From positions 1 to 37,566 of the forward strand of contig CAJFVQ010000005.1 in the NCBI GenBank assembly GCA_904420535.1: a DNA stretch of 37,566 nucleotides. The letters are read 5' to 3'. A model generated the notes under the pieces. That model was not told where the DNA came from. It searched no databases and saw only the letters and a list, made by a program, of their open reading frames with translations. Below are positions 2,064 to 32,104 of the stretch, piece after piece. The DNA is from Candidatus Cryptoclostridium obscurum. Its GTDB lineage: Bacteria > Bacillota > Dehalobacteriia > UBA7702. The stretch's first letter is position 1, and the number at the start of each line of letters is the position of its first letter. The translations under genes and the position numbers were made by a program.

Positions 2064-5000
2064 TTATTTCATTTCCAACAAAAGATGAATCATTTTTGCA
2101 GCGGCGCCGCGACTCGCATTTCCTCTGGGATGGAAAATATTATTGCCCTCTCCTTGGAGAATACCGGCAGATTTCATGCGGTAAACAGCTTCTTTGGCAT
2201 AATCTGCGATTTCAGCATCGTCGGCAAAGACAGTTTCATCGGCAGCAGGCAAAGAGATTTCCATTGCATTGGCATAGCGTGTCATCATAGCGGCAATTTG
2301 TTCTCTCGTTACTTCGTCGTCAGGGGCAAATTCCCTTTCCGAAATACCATTGATGATCCCTTTTTCAACGGCCCAAGCCACATGGGCGGCATAGTATTCA
2401 TTGGCGTTCACATCATCAAATTTCGTTGTCGCGGGTGCTTTTTGACTACTATCTGTCACATCGGCAGTGCGGCCTAAAACCGCCACGAATTGTCCCCTGG
2501 TCATACTTTCATCGGGTCCGAACATCGTATCGCTGATTCCGTTCATGATATTTTTTTCATAAACATAGAGCACATCTTCATAGAACCACTGTCCGCTCAA
2601 AACGTCGGTAAAAGGCATCTGGTGTTCCAAAGCTTTTAATCTATCTTCTGCTTTGACAAGTTTTGCCAAAGTCTCTTCCGAAATCTGCTGTTTTTCCTCC
2701 TCACTCAGACTATCGTAAGCAGCGCGAGCCTGAACAATACGGTCTTTATCTTGTATAGTGATCTCTGAGGGCAAAGCATTGATAGCATCGCTGACAGCTT
2801 CTATTTTCAAGTTGCTCAAAGCTCCTTCAATTTCTTCCAACCGGGCAATATTGGCCACTTTAGACTTTTCCGAATCACTGAGAGCTTCATAGGCAGCGCG
2901 GACAGATTGCACCGCTTCTTCATCGTCTAAAGTGATTCGATAAGACGCGGGCAAAGCCCGAATCATCTCCGTCACAGCTTGGGCCGAAGCATTTTCCAAA
3001 GAAGCAATAGCATCTTCCGCTTGCTCCAATTTCTTTAAAATATCATCAGGAATGAAAGCCTTTTGTTCATCGCTGAGATCTTCATAAGCGGCTCTGGCTG
3101 CTTCCACATCGGCTTTTTGATCCATGGTGATCTCATCGGACAATTCCTGAATCAAATTGATAACGACTTGAGATCCCTGTTCTGTTACGGTCACTACACA
3201 CCAAGGTGAAATAATATAGTTGTAAGAATCGGTTCCCTTAGCAGAAATCACGTAGGTTCCCGCTTGATCGAAAGTCAATGTCACTTTCCCACGGTTATCT
3301 CCTTCATTGCCGGTGACCGCGCCATTGATAGAAATCAAGCGTCCGTTATTCTGATTCACTTTAGTAATTTGGGCGTTGGCAATATCATCGGTCATCATAT
3401 CAATGTATTCTTCCGTGGCATAACAATAATAACCATAGGGATAGCCGCGGAGCGACAATGTTACAGATTCTCCCTGGGGGATTGTAATAGACTCGACCTT
3501 TTCGCCGTTTTGTTCAAACCAAACATACTGGTCGCTCCAATAACTATCCTGATAGAAAAAGAATTCTACGACATCGCCTTCTTCAATTACAGCCTCATGA
3601 ACTGAATATGCTGTATAACCGTTTCCCACCTGCACGCCGTCGTTAGGGCAACGACCGTTCACGGCAAAGCTCAGACTGGAGGATTCTTTTTCAAACATCT
3701 TACGGATCAGGCCGCTGTTGGAATCAACGTCAAGGAAATTCTCTGCGGTCTTTGCGGTAAATTCTTCACCATAGTAGGCAATATGAGCTGCCACCAACGC
3801 ATCAAGAGTTGTTACGTCAGCAGGCTTTACCTGATCCCCATAAGAATAACCGTAAAGTTCCGCAAGTCCTGCCACAGGCTTCACGGTCTGACGGGGCATC
3901 AGATAACGGTTTTGGTCCTGAGCGCTAAAAGTCACATCAATCGGCGTTGCTTTTTCCAGATCTACACTGATCGTAGGGGCCGATTCTCTCGGTACCACCC
4001 CTTTGGCAGGGATATAGCCCTCCTTCATCACGGAATAGGTGTAGTCTGCCACCGTAAACATCCCTATGTATTTTCCGTCTTCACCGACCTCCACCTCGTT
4101 GCCATTAGGGTCGAACACTTTTACAACAGCATCTTTCGGGGAGACATTCATTGTCAAAACAGAAGCGTCTACTTTACTCAAATGAATGGTGTATGTGGTC
4201 GTTAAAGCATTCTCATCGCTGCCGCCACTTACCGCGACTTCGATCTGATCAATTTTGCTGACGTCTATATCACAACTGAGGAAACCACCTTCATATGGCT
4301 GGCCGTTCACCGTTACAGTATTGCTGGATTTGGTATAAGCCCTATTGATGGATATGGTATCCGTATCGCTTAAAATCACTGCGTTGTATTGGGTAACACT
4401 TTTATTGAAATCGGGTTCTAAATCGAGGGAAACGCCATCAACGGTTAGTGGCATGGAAGTAAAACAAGGCAGGTAATTGATATTTAGTATATAGGTACCT
4501 ACACCGTAATCACTGTTTTCCGGTGGAGTTACAGTGATCACCACTTGATTTTTCCCTGTCGACAAAGACAATGATTTATAAGAATCATTGGTGAGATTAA
4601 TCGCATTGCCGCCATTGACAGATACTGTCGTTTGATAACTGGCGTCAAATTTAGCTCGGAGATAAAAACTGGAGCCGTCCACCTGATCGGCCAAATTATA
4701 TTCTCTGGTATCTGCGGCAAAATGCGGAATATCTTCTCCGTAATCATCGGTAGAATATTGGAGCAAAGCGGTGGACGCGCTGAACGAATAAGCGTTATAG
4801 GCTCTTAAGTCACCGAGGGGTGCCCCATCTTTCGCATCCCTCACCACAGTTACGGTATAAGTAATGATTTCACTGCCATCTTCTGCCGAAGTTTCCAATG
4901 TAAGTTTGTTCTCTCCGTAATTTAACATTACTTCCGAAGAGGTTCCTTCAGATTCGCTGCCGTTGATTTTGACTTTTGTATCTTCGTTAATGGCAGACCA

Positions 5001-7463
5001 ATTCAAAGTAATTTTATCGGCATCGGAGGGAATTTTCACCGTGTAATCCCTTTGGGAGAGCAGGAATCCTTTGCCGTCTTTAGAGGTTAAAACGCCGTAC
5101 CCTTCCTCCAAAGTCACACCTTCCTCTGCGGTCAGAGAAATATCTTGGAGGCCGGGATTTTTCACAATGTCGCTGTTATATACCAGCATGGAATAAGTCT
5201 TGGCGTCCCCTAAAGATGCGTCACTGGGTGTTACAACATAGTCAATATAGTTCAGCTTATCCTTACTGATCACTCCCGTTCCCAAAGAAGTCTTAATACC
5301 AGACAACAATTTTACCGTACCGCCGTCGTCGCCGTCCCCATGGCTATAACGAGCACTGATGGAAACCTGGGGCTGGGCAGATGTCGCCGTCGTCACCATT
5401 TCATAAGTTTCTTTCCATTTCGCGGTAGTGAAAGAAACAACAGTATTGTCTGCAATGGGTTTAGAAGATGTCGCTGTTAAAGTTTTATTAAAGCTACAAA
5501 CAAAGGTACTGGTACCATGGTAAGCGACAATTTTAGAAAGATCGGCAAAACCTTCGGGCATGACCACTTCGCTGTCGGGTTCTACTTCAATGGTGATATC
5601 CGGCAAAATGCTAAATTGCCCGGGGCGTTCCAAAGCATTAAAGTTGGAACCGCGGCCGCTGTCTGTGATGGTGCGGTGGGCGCCAAATGGGTCCCCCATG
5701 CTGGTTAAACTGATACAACCGTTTTCCAAAACGCAGGTTCCGCTTTTCCACATCGTCGCGGTAATGGTATTAGAGGAGATCAGATTATACTGGACGACTT
5801 TGCTACTCAGAGAGCCGCCGTCAGCCATTTCATAAAGAACGCAAGCCGTGCCAAGATAACCGGGATTATACACGCCACCCATTTTCGGTACAGGCATGGA
5901 AAGACCATCAAAAGAGATCTCAATGGTATCCCCTTGTTTTACAACATCGGAATCGGGATTGGTCGTATTCTTGATCTGATAACTTACTTCCTTGCACTTA
6001 ATCACATGATACTGAACTTCGCCGTTGAGCGTCACCTTTACGATGTTGCTACCGTCCTTCAAGGTCAAAGACGCAGTCCCATCTTCACCCAAAGCAACAG
6101 CAGCGCCATTCACCTCCACGACAGCACCGGTCGGCGGGGTGAAGGTATAGGAACCATCCATCCCTTTCGTATGGTATACGGTATCGAATTCCGTCAGTTC
6201 AATTCCTGTCTCAAAAGCATGTTCCGTTCCACCCACATTGACGACGAAAATACCTTTACGATCGGGATCCACAGCGCCGTAAATGCCGCTGTAAAGACTA
6301 CATCCATCAACATCAATGGCATCGTAGGTCACTTCCACGACACTGATGCCATTTTCCACAGCCTCCATTTTGCCGTTGGCGTCAACAGTGACGGAACTGC
6401 CTTCCACAACTCGAAAGTGGAAATCCGGTTCAATCTGAATGTTGGAAGAAACATTATTCACGATTTGCCATGTCCGATAGGGACGTATTTGAAACGTCTC
6501 CCCTTTGTCCATCGCCATATAGTTACTGTCGCTGATATTTAACAGCATACTGTCTTCAATGTAGGCGTAACCGCTGCCGCCTTCCGCGCTGTAGCCAGGA
6601 CGGACGTTGACAGCTTCATCAGAGAATTGGATTTCTTTTTCAAAATCTTTAGTAGTCGTTAAATAACCTGCCCTGGTGATTTTCCCCTCCATTGAACAAC
6701 GATAGGTCAAATTGGCGTTGCTTTTGGGAAGCTGGTAAACATAAGTGTCCACAGTTTCCCCCTCTTCTTTGGTAAAAGACGTCAATTCCATGTACTTATA
6801 ATTGACCACCTGAGCTTCGATACGGAAATCAGCGCCATGAGGCACGGTAAAAGTTCCCGTAATGGCCTGGGGCATGGAAAATGTCAACGAATTCACAGAA
6901 GTTCCTGCAGACATCGCGCGACTCATCTGACTATATTGCAATCCCAGTTCGCTACTTTCAGGGAATACCGCGGCAGCGTAAACTGTGGCATTGCCATTGG
7001 TATAAAAGAGATAACGGTTCTTGCTCTGACCGGTGTCGGTGACATCTACGATCCCCGGAGTTACAGTAATGCCATCAGGACAAAAGACTTCGATGTGATA
7101 CTGGTCATCTGACAAATAATTTCCGTCAACTTTGGTACTTACGGCATAAGTTGTCGCCCGTAGGACTATATCGGAAGTTTCCGCATCCATGTTCATGGTA
7201 ATCGTTCCCCAACTGCCCTTGGTATCCTCTGCGGAGAACGTATAAATCCCCGGCACACCGGAGAATGTGTATTGGTGGTATCCATCTACTACACCGCCGT
7301 CCTTCAACGTGACGGCATCCCCCTCACTATCCGTAGCGGCCAGGCTCAAATCACTGGTTGCAACGGACACGGTGTAAATATTACTGTCTTCGGCAAGAAC
7401 AGCGGCACCCATGGAAAATACCATGGCCAATATCAACACCAGACTCAAAAATGCTTTTCTCAT
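2064..7463 (-). CDS. B12-riboswitch-controlled secreted SLH protein with cadherin-like and DUF4430-like domains
   Basis: 1,799-residue surface protein. The start MRKAFLSLVLILAMV (7463) has GAAAGGAAAAAGAAC upstream; an ATG 13 codons earlier lacks one and would precede the signal peptide. Seen in order: signal peptide 1-25; beta-rich repeats, one Ig-like, to about 760; three cadherin-like beta-sandwich segments, roughly 770-880, 880-1000 and 1002-1095; a PEGA-like segment 1097-1170; a DUF4430-like region about 1215-1305 (TTLDALVAAH, SFAVNGRCPNDG, IEEGDVVEFFFYQD); a beta domain to 1433; three alpha-helical repeats 1434-1615 (RAAYEDLSDEQK type); and three SLH domains 1616-1799. SLH domains hold proteins on secondary cell-wall polymer. 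DUF4430 is related to the C-terminal domain of transcobalamin. Because a cobalamin riboswitch precedes the gene, I infer a surface corrinoid-binding role. Alternatives are an adhesin or a structural S-layer protein. The domain architecture is secure; the ligand is not. Confidence 0.85.
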   Translation of the reverse strand: MRKAFLSLVLILAMVFSMGAAVLAEDSNIYTVSVATSDLSLAATDSEGDAVTLKDGGVVDGYHQYTFSGVPGIYTFSAEDTKGSWGTITMNMDAETSDIVLRATTYAVSTKVDGNYLSDDQYHIEVFCPDGITVTPGIVDVTDTGQSKNRYLFYTNGNATVYAAAVFPESSELGLQYSQMSRAMSAGTSVNSLTFSMPQAITGTFTVPHGADFRIEAQVVNYKYMELTSFTKEEGETVDTYVYQLPKSNANLTYRCSMEGKITRAGYLTTTKDFEKEIQFSDEAVNVRPGYSAEGGSGYAYIEDSMLLNISDSNYMAMDKGETFQIRPYRTWQIVNNVSSNIQIEPDFHFRVVEGSSVTVDANGKMEAVENGISVVEVTYDAIDVDGCSLYSGIYGAVDPDRKGIFVVNVGGTEHAFETGIELTEFDTVYHTKGMDGSYTFTPPTGAVVEVNGAAVALGEDGTASLTLKDGSNIVKVTLNGEVQYHVIKCKEVSYQIKNTTNPDSDVVKQGDTIEISFDGLSMPVPKMGGVYNPGYLGTACVLYEMADGGSLSSKVVQYNLISSNTITATMWKSGTCVLENGCISLTSMGDPFGAHRTITDSGRGSNFNALERPGQFSILPDITIEVEPDSEVVMPEGFADLSKIVAYHGTSTFVCSFNKTLTATSSKPIADNTVVSFTTAKWKETYEMVTTATSAQPQVSISARYSHGDGDDGGTVKLLSGIKTSLGTGVISKDKLNYIDYVVTPSDASLGDAKTYSMLVYNSDIVKNPGLQDISLTAEEGVTLEEGYGVLTSKDGKGFLLSQRDYTVKIPSDADKITLNWSAINEDTKVKINGSESEGTSSEVMLNYGENKLTLETSAEDGSEIITYTVTVVRDAKDGAPLGDLRAYNAYSFSASTALLQYSTDDYGEDIPHFAADTREYNLADQVDGSSFYLRAKFDASYQTTVSVNGGNAINLTNDSYKSLSLSTGKNQVVITVTPPENSDYGVGTYILNINYLPCFTSMPLTVDGVSLDLEPDFNKSVTQYNAVILSDTDTISINRAYTKSSNTVTVNGQPYEGGFLSCDIDVSKIDQIEVAVSGGSDENALTTTYTIHLSKVDASVLTMNVSPKDAVVKVFDPNGNEVEVGEDGKYIGMFTVADYTYSVMKEGYIPAKGVVPRESAPTISVDLEKATPIDVTFSAQDQNRYLMPRQTVKPVAGLAELYGYSYGDQVKPADVTTLDALVAAHIAYYGEEFTAKTAENFLDVDSNSGLIRKMFEKESSSLSFAVNGRCPNDGVQVGNGYTAYSVHEAVIEEGDVVEFFFYQDSYWSDQYVWFEQNGEKVESITIPQGESVTLSLRGYPYGYYCYATEEYIDMMTDDIANAQITKVNQNNGRLISINGAVTGNEGDNRGKVTLTFDQAGTYVISAKGTDSYNYIISPWCVVTVTEQGSQVVINLIQELSDEITMDQKADVEAARAAYEDLSDEQKAFIPDDILKKLEQAEDAIASLENASAQAVTEMIRALPASYRITLDDEEAVQSVRAAYEALSDSEKSKVANIARLEEIEGALSNLKIEAVSDAINALPSEITIQDKDRIVQARAAYDSLSEEEKQQISEETLAKLVKAEDRLKALEHQMPFTDVLSGQWFYEDVLYVYEKNIMNGISDTMFGPDESMTRGQFVAVLGRTADVTDSSQKAPATTKFDDVNANEYYAAHVAWAVEKGIINGISEREFAPDDEVTREQIAAMMTRYANAMEISLPAADETVFADDAEIADYAKEAVYRMKSAGILQGEGNNIFHPRGNASRGAAAKMIHLLLEMK

Positions 7464-7589
7464 GTTCTTTTTCCTTTCTTTTGGAATTTTTCGGAATCTC
7501 ACGACTTCCCTTTTCTTGCATCGTGGTCACTTGACGACAAAAAATTCACCTAATTTACTCAGAGCACAGGTAGTTTTCTATCGCCAATC

Positions 7590-7622
7590 AAAAAAGCCGT
7601 TTCCACCAGGATACGGCTTTTC
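7590..7622 (-). terminator. Intrinsic terminator of the cobalamin riboswitch (expression platform)
   Basis: On the minus strand AAAGCCGT (complement of 7613-7620) pairs with ACGGCTTT (complement of 7593-7600) around a 12-base loop, followed directly by further T residues. It lies between the B12 aptamer and the SLH start codon, about 127 bases before the ATG. This fits cobalamin-induced premature termination. Confidence 0.82.
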
Positions 7623-7626
7623 CATA

Positions 7627-7812
7627 CAAAAATTCGCACCGCCCAAAATAATATTGTCGGTGATTATTACCCAATCCCGGAGGTTTCAACAAAGGATGCA
7701 TTCTGACTCATCATCAATATTCACCAAAATTAGAATATTTACTGATTCACAGTGGCCGGTCCGTTCGGGATTCTCACCCGATTCCCATCACTCTGTAACT
7801 GTGCTTTTATTG
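7627..7812 (-). promoter_or_regulatory. Cobalamin (B12) riboswitch in the leader of the SLH gene
   Basis: The minus strand carries the conserved B12 aptamer landmarks in order. GGGAATCGGGTGAGAATCCC (7767-7786) is the GGGAA plus P5/L5 element. CGGACCGGCCACTGT (ending at 7749) is the GCCACTGT core. A perfect AATATTC/GAATATT stem comes next, then GAGTCAGAATGC (7698-7709), which matches the B12-box region. Downstream, CACCG/CGGTG (7637-7641 with 7658-7662) forms a stem whose loop could be the kissing-loop partner. Cobalamin binding normally shuts off the downstream gene. The only gene downstream is the 1,799-residue SLH protein. The 5' and 3' boundaries are approximate, and I cannot assign the class (adenosyl- or methyl/hydroxo-selective) by eye. 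Confidence 0.9.
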
Positions 7813-7823
7813 ATGTAATTCCA

Positions 7824-7851
7824 ATTATACCCAAATTTGAAGGAAAATCAA
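7824..7851 (-). promoter_or_regulatory. Sigma-A promoter of the riboswitch-SLH transcript
   Basis: TTGATT (7846-7851) and TATAAT (7824-7829) on the minus strand are 16 bases apart. The predicted start near 7817 is just before the riboswitch and gives a leader of about 350 bases. Confidence 0.75.
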
Positions 7852-29542: not shown

Positions 29543-32104
29543 TTAAAGTTCTGAAAGGAAGCGTTGAAGTACTGTTGCAACTTGGGCACGGGTGCTCGTT
29601 CCTTGAGGATACAAAGTTCCGTTGTCCATGCCTTCCACAATGCCATTTTCCACTGCCCAAATCATAGCTTCTTTGGACCAATCGGCAACTTTTTCACCGT
29701 CGCTAAACTGATCCAGAGCATTGCTATTTTCAACGGTGACATCCTTTTCGAGGAACTTGGCATAACGGTACATCATTGTAACCATCTGTTCCCTGGTCAT
29801 ATTGTCATAGGGAGCATAAGTTGTATCACTGCAGCCTTCTACCACACCGTTTTCTGCGGCCCAATGAACATGAGATGCATAATATTCCGTGGAAACTACA
29901 TCAGTAAATCCGGTAACACTGGGAGTTTCGGCAGTGGCATCAGCAATGCCTTCGTGACGTCCCAACACAGAAACGAACATGGCACGAGTCATGGTTTCAT
30001 CGGGCCCGAAAGTGGTTTCATCAATACCGTTGAACAATGATTCATCTACCACATATTGGATGGCAGGGACATACCAGGCACCGGTTTCCACATCAGTATA
30101 TTGTTCCGTTACGTCTATAGGTTTTTCTACAGTAAAGCTGTCATAAACGTAAGGTTCGGTGACAACCTGGTCAGTGGCGGGATCATATTTGTACATATAG
30201 GTGGTGAAATCGATGGTATTACCGTCGACATGAACCAACGTATAAACCTGTTCCTTCTTCACATCGCTGCCGTCGTCGGCGGAGTTTTTATCGAGGAATT
30301 CATAGTTAGCTGCAAGGAGATCCCCGGCAGATACTTCATAATTCTTTTTACTGTACCATTTCAAACCGCCGGCATGACCGCCCACCATATAAAGGATCGC
30401 ATCATCGGGATCGGTGTAAACGCCGTTTTCCGCAACGAGTCCTGCATTGTTCCCTTCAGCAGTGACAAATCCTCTGGAATAAACATGGTCATGACCCATC
30501 AATACGATATCGACACCTAATTCGTTGAGAACAGGCCCCCAATAAGTTCTTGCCGCAATCACATCGGAATCCACAATGTGAGACGCGCCGGTGTAAATGG
30601 ATTTATGGAAACCTACCACGATCCATTGACCGTTGGTTTTGGCATCAGCCACTTGGGCAGTAAGGTATTCTTTTTGAGCCGTGCGGATGGCCTCATCATT
30701 TTTCGCGGTTTCCAGATTTAAAACAATGAATTTCATGTTGCCGTAATCGAAGGCGTAAACGGAATCCCCAACGCTTTCATTGGCGGAAGGCGCTTCAATA
30801 TGATCGGTAAACCAGGCATTGTCATGATTTCCCTGGGTAACAACGACAGTTTTATTACCAAATAAGTCTTGGCCGCCGTCGGGTTCCGCACCGTCGTTGT
30901 TAAAAAGGATCTCCCACTGAGTTTCATTCGTTGCCGTGTTGGTAATATCGCCGGCAATATAGACGTAGTCCAGATCCATTTCACTCAACATTTCCATGGT
31001 ATAACCGGCAGCTTCCGCATCCGAGGCAGTACTTACCTGAGGATCGGTAATGAAAGCAAAGGTGAAGTCATCCTGACTGTCTTTCGTTTTAGCAGTATCA
31101 AAGGCGCCTTCAAAACGATGATCACCAATCACTACCGTATAAGTGTAATGGGTGTCGGCAGTTAAACCATCCAAAGTCACGGTGTGCATATATTTTCCCG
31201 TTGTTTCTGAATATACGGATTGATCTTCATAAGTTTTCGGCGTACCGTTTTGAGGCGTTACAGTAATCACACTTTTCGCGTCCGTGGCAGTGGTAAAGGA
31301 AAGATAGACAGTATCAGCAGTCATTCCCATATGCACGTTCACTTGTTTTGCCTCATCAGCAGTGGTGGCAGCACCATGGGGGCCGAGGTCTTCGGAAACG
31401 GCTTCACTGTAGTCCACAATCTGAAAGTCAGCGCTGTTATTATCGGTATCTGCAAATTCTACTCGACGAATGGCTTTCTTCTTGGACTGAACGTCGGAGG
31501 CTGTACCTTCTACAGCAGGAGCCTTTTGTTCTTCAAAGCCGTCGTTTCCGTTGGCGGCAGCCAAGTCCACAAAGCCGTCAGCTTCCATCACATTGTTGGA
31601 AGTTAAAAGTGTTTGATTACTCATCAAAGCAACGGAAACGCCTTTGTTGTGAAGCGCAATATCCCATTGGCTCTGCCCCGCAGGAACCTGATAAGCTACG
31701 TTTGCCGTATCGGTCACAGCGGCACATCGAATCAAATAATAGCCCCGTGCTTCAATAGAGCCACTGAGATCTTGTTTCGTCCAGGCAGCGGATTGGTCGC
31801 CGTCTGCGGAAGAGCGATACTGTACCGACCATCCATCAAGGGAAATGGATTGATCTGTGGGATTATAAAGTTCAATAAAGCTATGGGATGCATAACCGTC
31901 ATCACTGCCGCCGTAAACTTGATTTACCACAACATGAGGCACAGATACATCATATTCCCCTTCCGTGTTATAGGGAGTACCGGCTATTTCCGCAGCATCG
32001 GCCGTAAGAACAGTCGGTCCTAAAATCGCGACGGCAAAAGCAAAAAGTACCGCAAAAATGCAAATCATCTTTTGCCAATGCTTTTTCAAAATTGAAGTAT
32101 TCAT
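29543..32104 (-). CDS. Secreted SLH-anchored metallophosphoesterase with lamin-tail domain
   Basis: 853 residues. Signal peptide about 1-38; lamin-tail (LTD) domain about 50-160 (VVVNQVYGGSDDGYASHSFIE, LYNPTDQSISLDGWSVQY); a purple-acid-phosphatase-type fibronectin-like domain about 255-345; calcineurin-like phosphoesterase about 350-600; three SLH domains about 665-853 (FGPDETMTRAMFVSVLGR). Metal-ligand motifs are FITDPQV, AGDITN (about 385), QGNHDN (about 428), GFHKS and LMGHDHVYSR (about 538), so the dinuclear metal centre looks complete. Likely a surface phosphohydrolase (5'-nucleotidase, phosphodiesterase or phosphatase) bound to wall polymer. RBS AAGGAGG is 7 bases before the ATG. The SLH parts resemble those of the 1,799-residue protein, suggesting shared anchoring. 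The promoter has a good -10 only. Substrate unknown. Confidence 0.9.
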   Translation of the reverse strand: MNTSILKKHWQKMICIFAVLFAFAVAILGPTVLTADAAEIAGTPYNTEGEYDVSVPHVVVNQVYGGSDDGYASHSFIELYNPTDQSISLDGWSVQYRSSADGDQSAAWTKQDLSGSIEARGYYLIRCAAVTDTANVAYQVPAGQSQWDIALHNKGVSVALMSNQTLLTSNNVMEADGFVDLAAANGNDGFEEQKAPAVEGTASDVQSKKKAIRRVEFADTDNNSADFQIVDYSEAVSEDLGPHGAATTADEAKQVNVHMGMTADTVYLSFTTATDAKSVITVTPQNGTPKTYEDQSVYSETTGKYMHTVTLDGLTADTHYTYTVVIGDHRFEGAFDTAKTKDSQDDFTFAFITDPQVSTASDAEAAGYTMEMLSEMDLDYVYIAGDITNTATNETQWEILFNNDGAEPDGGQDLFGNKTVVVTQGNHDNAWFTDHIEAPSANESVGDSVYAFDYGNMKFIVLNLETAKNDEAIRTAQKEYLTAQVADAKTNGQWIVVGFHKSIYTGASHIVDSDVIAARTYWGPVLNELGVDIVLMGHDHVYSRGFVTAEGNNAGLVAENGVYTDPDDAILYMVGGHAGGLKWYSKKNYEVSAGDLLAANYEFLDKNSADDGSDVKKEQVYTLVHVDGNTIDFTTYMYKYDPATDQVVTEPYVYDSFTVEKPIDVTEQYTDVETGAWYVPAIQYVVDESLFNGIDETTFGPDETMTRAMFVSVLGRHEGIADATAETPSVTGFTDVVSTEYYASHVHWAAENGVVEGCSDTTYAPYDNMTREQMVTMMYRYAKFLEKDVTVENSNALDQFSDGEKVADWSKEAMIWAVENGIVEGMDNGTLYPQGTSTRAQVATVLQRFLSEL

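Follow-up and report, generated by a model that had tools for sequence, protein, structure and literature searches.

Why would a bacterium place a giant cell-wall protein under the control of a vitamin? The question is raised by a 37,566-nt stretch of Candidatus Cryptoclostridium obscurum DNA (Dehalobacteriia; contig CAJFVQ010000005.1 of assembly GCA_904420535.1), hereafter the window, whose minus strand carries a predicted cobalamin riboswitch ahead of P0001, a gene for a giant surface protein with S-layer homology (SLH) domains. The lineage comprises dichloromethane fermenters and their relatives, with corrinoid-dependent methyltransferases and the Wood-Ljungdahl pathway, and the molecular workings of surface corrinoid capture are known for Bacteroides but scarcely for Bacillota with energy-coupling factor (ECF) transporters. 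A first-pass annotation of the window proposed a role in corrinoid acquisition or handling at the surface. That proposal was drawn from regulation alone and is independently supported by what we report here, namely a diverged DUF4430 domain in the protein, homologs preceded by riboswitches, apparent operons with ECF transporters and sister genes under riboswitches in the same genome. Because the riboswitch, a diverged transcobalamin-like domain and the repeated pairing of both riboswitches and vitamin-type ECF transporters with such proteins in relatives point the same way, the window protein probably serves to capture corrinoids at the cell surface. We give a probability of about two in three to the full reading, in which it is repressed by its riboswitch in replete cells, anchored by SLH domains, reliant on the DUF4430-like domain for capture, and served by regulon partners and ECF delivery.

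The leader and its predicted cobalamin aptamer

All of the aptamer landmarks named at first pass are present in the order claimed, each once and on the minus strand (GGGAATCGGGTGAGAATCCCGAACGG at 7786-7761, GCCACTGTGA at 7756-7747 and GAGTCAGAATGC at 7709-7698). The Rfam cobalamin model RF00174 is matched over its full length (model positions 1-189) with a score of 30.2 bits (E 9.9e-6 in an 801-nt scan and 6.3e-6 when the whole 2.1-Mb genome is searched), although this lies just under the gathering cut-off of 31.5 bits. Alignment with 11 other riboswitches from the same genome and class indicates that the window aptamer keeps all 18 of the 18 invariant columns, and the invariant core GGxxxGGUG..AAUCC, CCACUGU and AGxCAG is intact. 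The peripheral insertion measures 7 nt as against 38 nt in the model, and P1-, P5- and P6-like stems appear in the unconstrained minimum-free-energy fold. No convincing L13 for an L5-L13 kissing loop could be picked out by eye; RF00174 does not model L13. A decayed and non-functional aptamer retained by chance before an unrelated gene would fit the sub-threshold score, the compact form and the A/U-rich peripheral stems, but we regard this as very improbable given the complete set of invariant columns, the folding of the three stems and the terminator-like hairpin downstream. Moreover, comparably weak aptamers precede an ECF operon in the same genome (29.2 bits) and a protein with a homologous domain in the relative G003 (33.1 bits). 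The window element is best read as a cobalamin-sensing riboswitch, with cobalamin as its probable ligand.

The remaining parts of the leader are less secure than the first-pass annotation had them. The proposed sigma-A promoter is present in sequence, but such matches arise by chance at this composition (one sigma-70-like match found in 700 nt versus 2.4 expected by shuffling), so the call rests on position, by which it is plausible. Similarly, the proposed intrinsic terminator corresponds to a hairpin with a folding energy of -18.5 kcal/mol and a U-run, but a terminator scanner returned nothing on the leader, probably owing to its loop and stem limits, and the call is accordingly based on folding and the U-run.

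A giant SLH protein with a diverged DUF4430 domain

As stated at first pass, the sole gene downstream of the leader encodes a 1,799-residue SLH protein, whose three SLH domains (E 5.8e-31) and signal peptide mark it as an SLH surface protein (Table 1). Its N-terminal region and a 265-residue unit (residues 1166-1430) recur in other giant proteins among the 43 genomes of our class set. No relative of the full-length protein was found in a scan of named genomes, and a search at family and order level, covering four genomes only, turned up nothing homologous to the N-terminal third.

We aligned the 265-residue unit with 11 relatives, and AlphaFold on this 12-sequence alignment predicts a mixed alpha/beta half and, behind it, an immunoglobulin (Ig)-like half with high confidence (predicted local distance difference test, pLDDT, 94.2; predicted template-modelling score, pTM, 0.90), as compared to a pLDDT of only 34 for the domain from a single sequence. 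When the first half of the unit was compared by hhalign with a profile of the DUF4430 domains of the class, the two profiles having no sequences in common after prior removal of overlaps, the probability was 94.9 and the score 47.5, as against at most 15.9 for 200 column shuffles and 15.8 for a reversed profile. The helix TTLDALVAAH, the strand FAVNG and the segment EGDVVEFFF fall in register between the two. The Pfam model of DUF4430, PF14478, matches two of the 12 aligned unit members (best E 1.9e-8). DUF4430 is the domain found at the transcobalamin C-terminus (PMC4350170), and the best sequence match of our DUF4430 profile in the PDB is the beta domain of transcobalamin-2, at a weak E of 0.049. 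On these profile comparisons, residues ~1174-1308 are assigned as a diverged DUF4430 domain of the transcobalamin C-terminal type. We also considered and rejected DUF4465, the domain by which Bacteroides BtuJ binds B12 (PMC13398666); it occurs in none of the 43 class genomes.

The window encodes a second SLH protein (29543-32104, minus strand, 853 amino acids, aa) with lamin-tail, purple-acid-phosphatase and metallophosphatase domains, with no cobalamin riboswitch reported in its vicinity.

Table 1. Coordinates of the riboswitch leader and of the giant SLH protein and its domains in the window
Feature	Position	Strand	Basis or remark
Sigma-A-like promoter TTGATT-N16-TATAAT	7824..7851	-	10/12 matches; ends beside aptamer
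Cobalamin riboswitch aptamer (predicted), compact	7677..7823	-	RF00174 match, class alignment, folding
Intrinsic-terminator-like hairpin and U-run, likely expression platform	7590..7623	-	Folding
Shine-Dalgarno-like AAAGGA	7472..7477	-	Sequence
Gene P0001, 1,799-aa signal-peptide/SLH surface protein	2064..7463	-	ATG at 7463
Signal peptide, residues about 1-25 (MRKAFLSLVLILAMVFSMGAAVLA)	7389..7463	-	Read by eye
Region common to the 2,952-aa G027 protein, residues 121-640	5544..7103	-	30% identity
Cadherin-like beta-sandwich PF12733, best copy, residues 799-875	4839..5069	-	
Diverged DUF4430 (transcobalamin C-terminal-like) domain, residues about 1174-1308	3540..3944	-	
Ig-like domain fused behind the DUF4430-like domain, residues about 1312-1428	3180..3530	-	
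Helical repeat linker, residues about 1432-1614 (ITMDQKADVEAARAAYEDLS repeats)	2622..3170	-	
Three SLH domains, wall anchor, residues 1617-1792	2088..2615	-	

Cobalamin riboswitches and DUF4430 genes across the class

Besides the window, nine loci in the class bear the 265-residue unit, and six of them have a cobalamin riboswitch upstream on the same strand. The riboswitch stands directly before the unit gene in G006 (a 2,634-aa frame), G003 and G028, is separated from it by one small open reading frame in G035, and heads the transcription unit that holds it in G001 and G002; none was detected at the G030 and G031 loci, both of which lie at contig edges. Outside the class, the unit follows a cobalamin riboswitch in G065 and G332, and no such pairing was seen within the stretch taken from G141, G260, G292 and G300. 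The association extends to DUF4430 in general: 54 of the 88 DUF4430 domains found class-wide are at most 10 kb downstream of a same-strand cobalamin riboswitch, versus about 1.1 expected from riboswitch density; for three domains a riboswitch lies on the opposite strand and for 10 it lies downstream. These counts are not fully independent because one gene or cluster can hold several of the domains, and collapsing them by contig and strand leaves 28 of 54 DUF4430 units with a cobalamin riboswitch within 12 kb. The first-pass remark that a giant wall-anchored protein is not a standard riboswitch target agrees with textbook lists; within this class, however, giant surface proteins are recurrent targets of cobalamin riboswitches. 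Tandem cobalamin aptamers were seen before ~2,000-aa DUF4430 proteins in two relatives (L099:668-1131 and L100:3812-4274), and a further tandem pair occurs in G006 (L087:4521-4986). The latter genome also holds a ~72-kb region (G006:C1:5455000-5534000; L084-L087) with about ten above-cut-off cobalamin riboswitches, two sets of ECF genes, toroid-type proteins and several giant DUF4430 proteins (2,634- to 3,635-aa frames), which by its predicted gene content is a putative corrinoid-acquisition island.

The likely partners of the giant protein are laid out most compactly in the relative G027, in which a single riboswitch heads an apparent operon beginning with a 2,952-aa DUF4430/SLH giant and continuing with an alpha-toroid-SLH protein, a DUF4430 lipoprotein-like protein, EcfT, a double EcfA (EcfAA') and an ECF S component. 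The window's own genome has 13 cobalamin riboswitch matches including that of the window, ten of them above cut-off, and the equivalents of the G027 parts are scattered, each behind its own cobalamin riboswitch. They comprise the window's giant SLH gene (C5), a DUF4430-Big2-SLH gene (C83), a protein with a weak DUF4430 match and, next after it, an SLH protein of 922 aa (C1), an alpha-toroid protein 41% identical to that of G027 (C75), and an ECF operon of EcfT (59% identical to that of G027), EcfA and S component (C10, the 29.2-bit riboswitch mentioned above). Three of the five DUF4430-type genes fall in the first two positions after the 13 riboswitches, for which the chance is about 2e-5 assuming 2,000 genes.

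A structural S-layer or adhesion protein under a real riboswitch, tuned to corrinoid status (for example in an envelope change on starvation) and with a DUF4430-like domain that lost or never had corrinoid binding, would be in keeping with the strong divergence of that domain, which draws no match from the Pfam model, and with the generic beta-sandwich, helical repeat and SLH regions that make up the bulk of the protein. We consider such a protein unlikely, since cobalamin riboswitches precede only about three of the genome's 32 or so SLH genes, which argues against these riboswitches as a general S-layer control, and of the two besides the window gene one is of DUF4430-SLH type and the other adjoins a DUF4430 gene. 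The pairing also recurs in several genera together with ECF transporters.

Other riboswitches of this genome have different neighbors. One of 115.7 bits (C83:77055; L010:3056-8700) precedes genes that by eye resemble a LysR-type regulator and a peptide/nickel-type ATP-binding cassette (ABC) transporter, an unusual target, and one of 75.2 bits (C25; L015:4444-4613) has no obvious corrinoid gene directly downstream. A third (C41; L012:1-7495) lies before genes that by eye resemble those of bza type (anaerobic benzimidazole) and cobT, which suggests that the organism may make its own lower ligand.

A proposed surface for corrinoid capture and its known counterparts

Under corrinoid capture as we propose it, the aptamer would be bound in a corrinoid-replete cell, the terminator would form and the giant protein would be repressed, probably by transcription termination. 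In a corrinoid-poor cell the protein would be made and exported via its signal peptide, the three SLH domains would hold it at the cell wall, and the displayed DUF4430-like domain would help to capture corrinoids, working alongside the DUF4430-SLH and alpha-toroid proteins that have genes and riboswitches of their own. Corrinoid would then be handed to the DUF4430 lipoprotein and on to the ECF transporter of the same regulon.

Several results weigh against this interpretation. A scan of the leader at the Rfam gathering threshold gives no match, leaving the aptamer formally sub-threshold, and PF14478 does not match the window's own domain. Foldseek comparison of the two-domain model with the PDB yields Ig-like matches only, which leaves sequence profiles as the basis of the transcobalamin link; against the PDB and BFVD together the Ig-like half dominates and no transcobalamin is among the matches listed. 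Cobalamin riboswitches could not be detected before a DUF4430-SLH gene of the same genome (C38, L021:646-1893) or upstream of the G018 homolog (L090:6384-12479; 2,031 aa, two unit copies). Finally, the window protein is without an alpha-toroid, the other half of transcobalamin's binding site, in which a toroid of alpha type and a beta domain enclose the vitamin between them. With regard to the two loci just named, the C38 protein has N-terminal SLH domains and its gene neighbors a divergently oriented DUF4430 lipoprotein-like gene, and at the G018 locus a thiamine pyrophosphate (TPP) riboswitch heads ABC transporter genes upstream.

Because the toroid and beta-type halves sit on different proteins here, a split capture surface formed by several proteins is possible. 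Taken further, the class may use a dispersed, wall-anchored "split transcobalamin", with toroid and DUF4430 halves on separate SLH proteins and the DUF4430 giants as a corrinoid-harvesting surface, all riboswitch-controlled and feeding an ECF transporter; this broader proposal is tentative and, in our view, less likely than not. If true, part of the S-layer would be a vitamin-scavenging organ turned on by corrinoid starvation.

The ligand might also be something other than a corrinoid, such as cobalt or a heme-like complex, taken up by a surface receptor coupled to corrinoid status. Bacillus anthracis has heme-binding SLH proteins with NEAT domains (work cited in PMC10327494), DUF4430 is annotated as of unknown function, and the S components found here are assigned only to the general ECF family. 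We judge such a receptor improbable, as DUF4430 is tied to transcobalamins and, class-wide, to cobalamin riboswitches. A corrinoid is the presumed ECF substrate.

Among known RF00174 riboswitches, those of Escherichia coli btuB and the Clostridioides difficile cbi and btu operons share with the window element the core motif, the 5' leader position and an intrinsic-terminator-like platform, but the window element is compact, scores below threshold and has a giant SLH protein as its target, in contrast to the cob/cbi genes and transporters that are among the C. difficile targets (PMC11477304). The S-layer proteins of Dehalobacteriia, the same class, are likewise SLH proteins and abundant, several being without identifiable function, and the main text of the study describing them is silent on cobalamin and riboswitches (PMC10327494). 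In the openly licensed literature on S-layer, DUF4430 and transcobalamin-like bacterial proteins, we found no earlier account of SLH/DUF4430 proteins under cobalamin riboswitches; the present findings would give a specific function to giant S-layer proteins, so far filed as function-unknown. The NEAT-SLH heme proteins of B. anthracis offer a parallel in SLH-anchored nutrient capture (work cited in PMC10327494), differing in ligand domain and regulation. Riboswitch-linked surface B12 capture is already known from Bacteroides, and the SLH/DUF4430 version would be a variant of it: BtuG, BtuH and BtuJ act ahead of a transporter, and BtuH has Ig-like spacer domains (PMC6143338, PMC8941943), but here the domain is of DUF4430 type, the anchor is SLH rather than lipid and the transporter is ECF rather than BtuB. 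Transcobalamin and intrinsic factor resemble the regulon in combining a beta domain of DUF4430 type with an alpha-toroid, the difference being that the halves are on separate proteins here and that the window protein, which would bind corrinoid on our reading, has the beta-type half only. If our reading is correct, prokaryotic, split relatives would join the transcobalamin and intrinsic-factor story.

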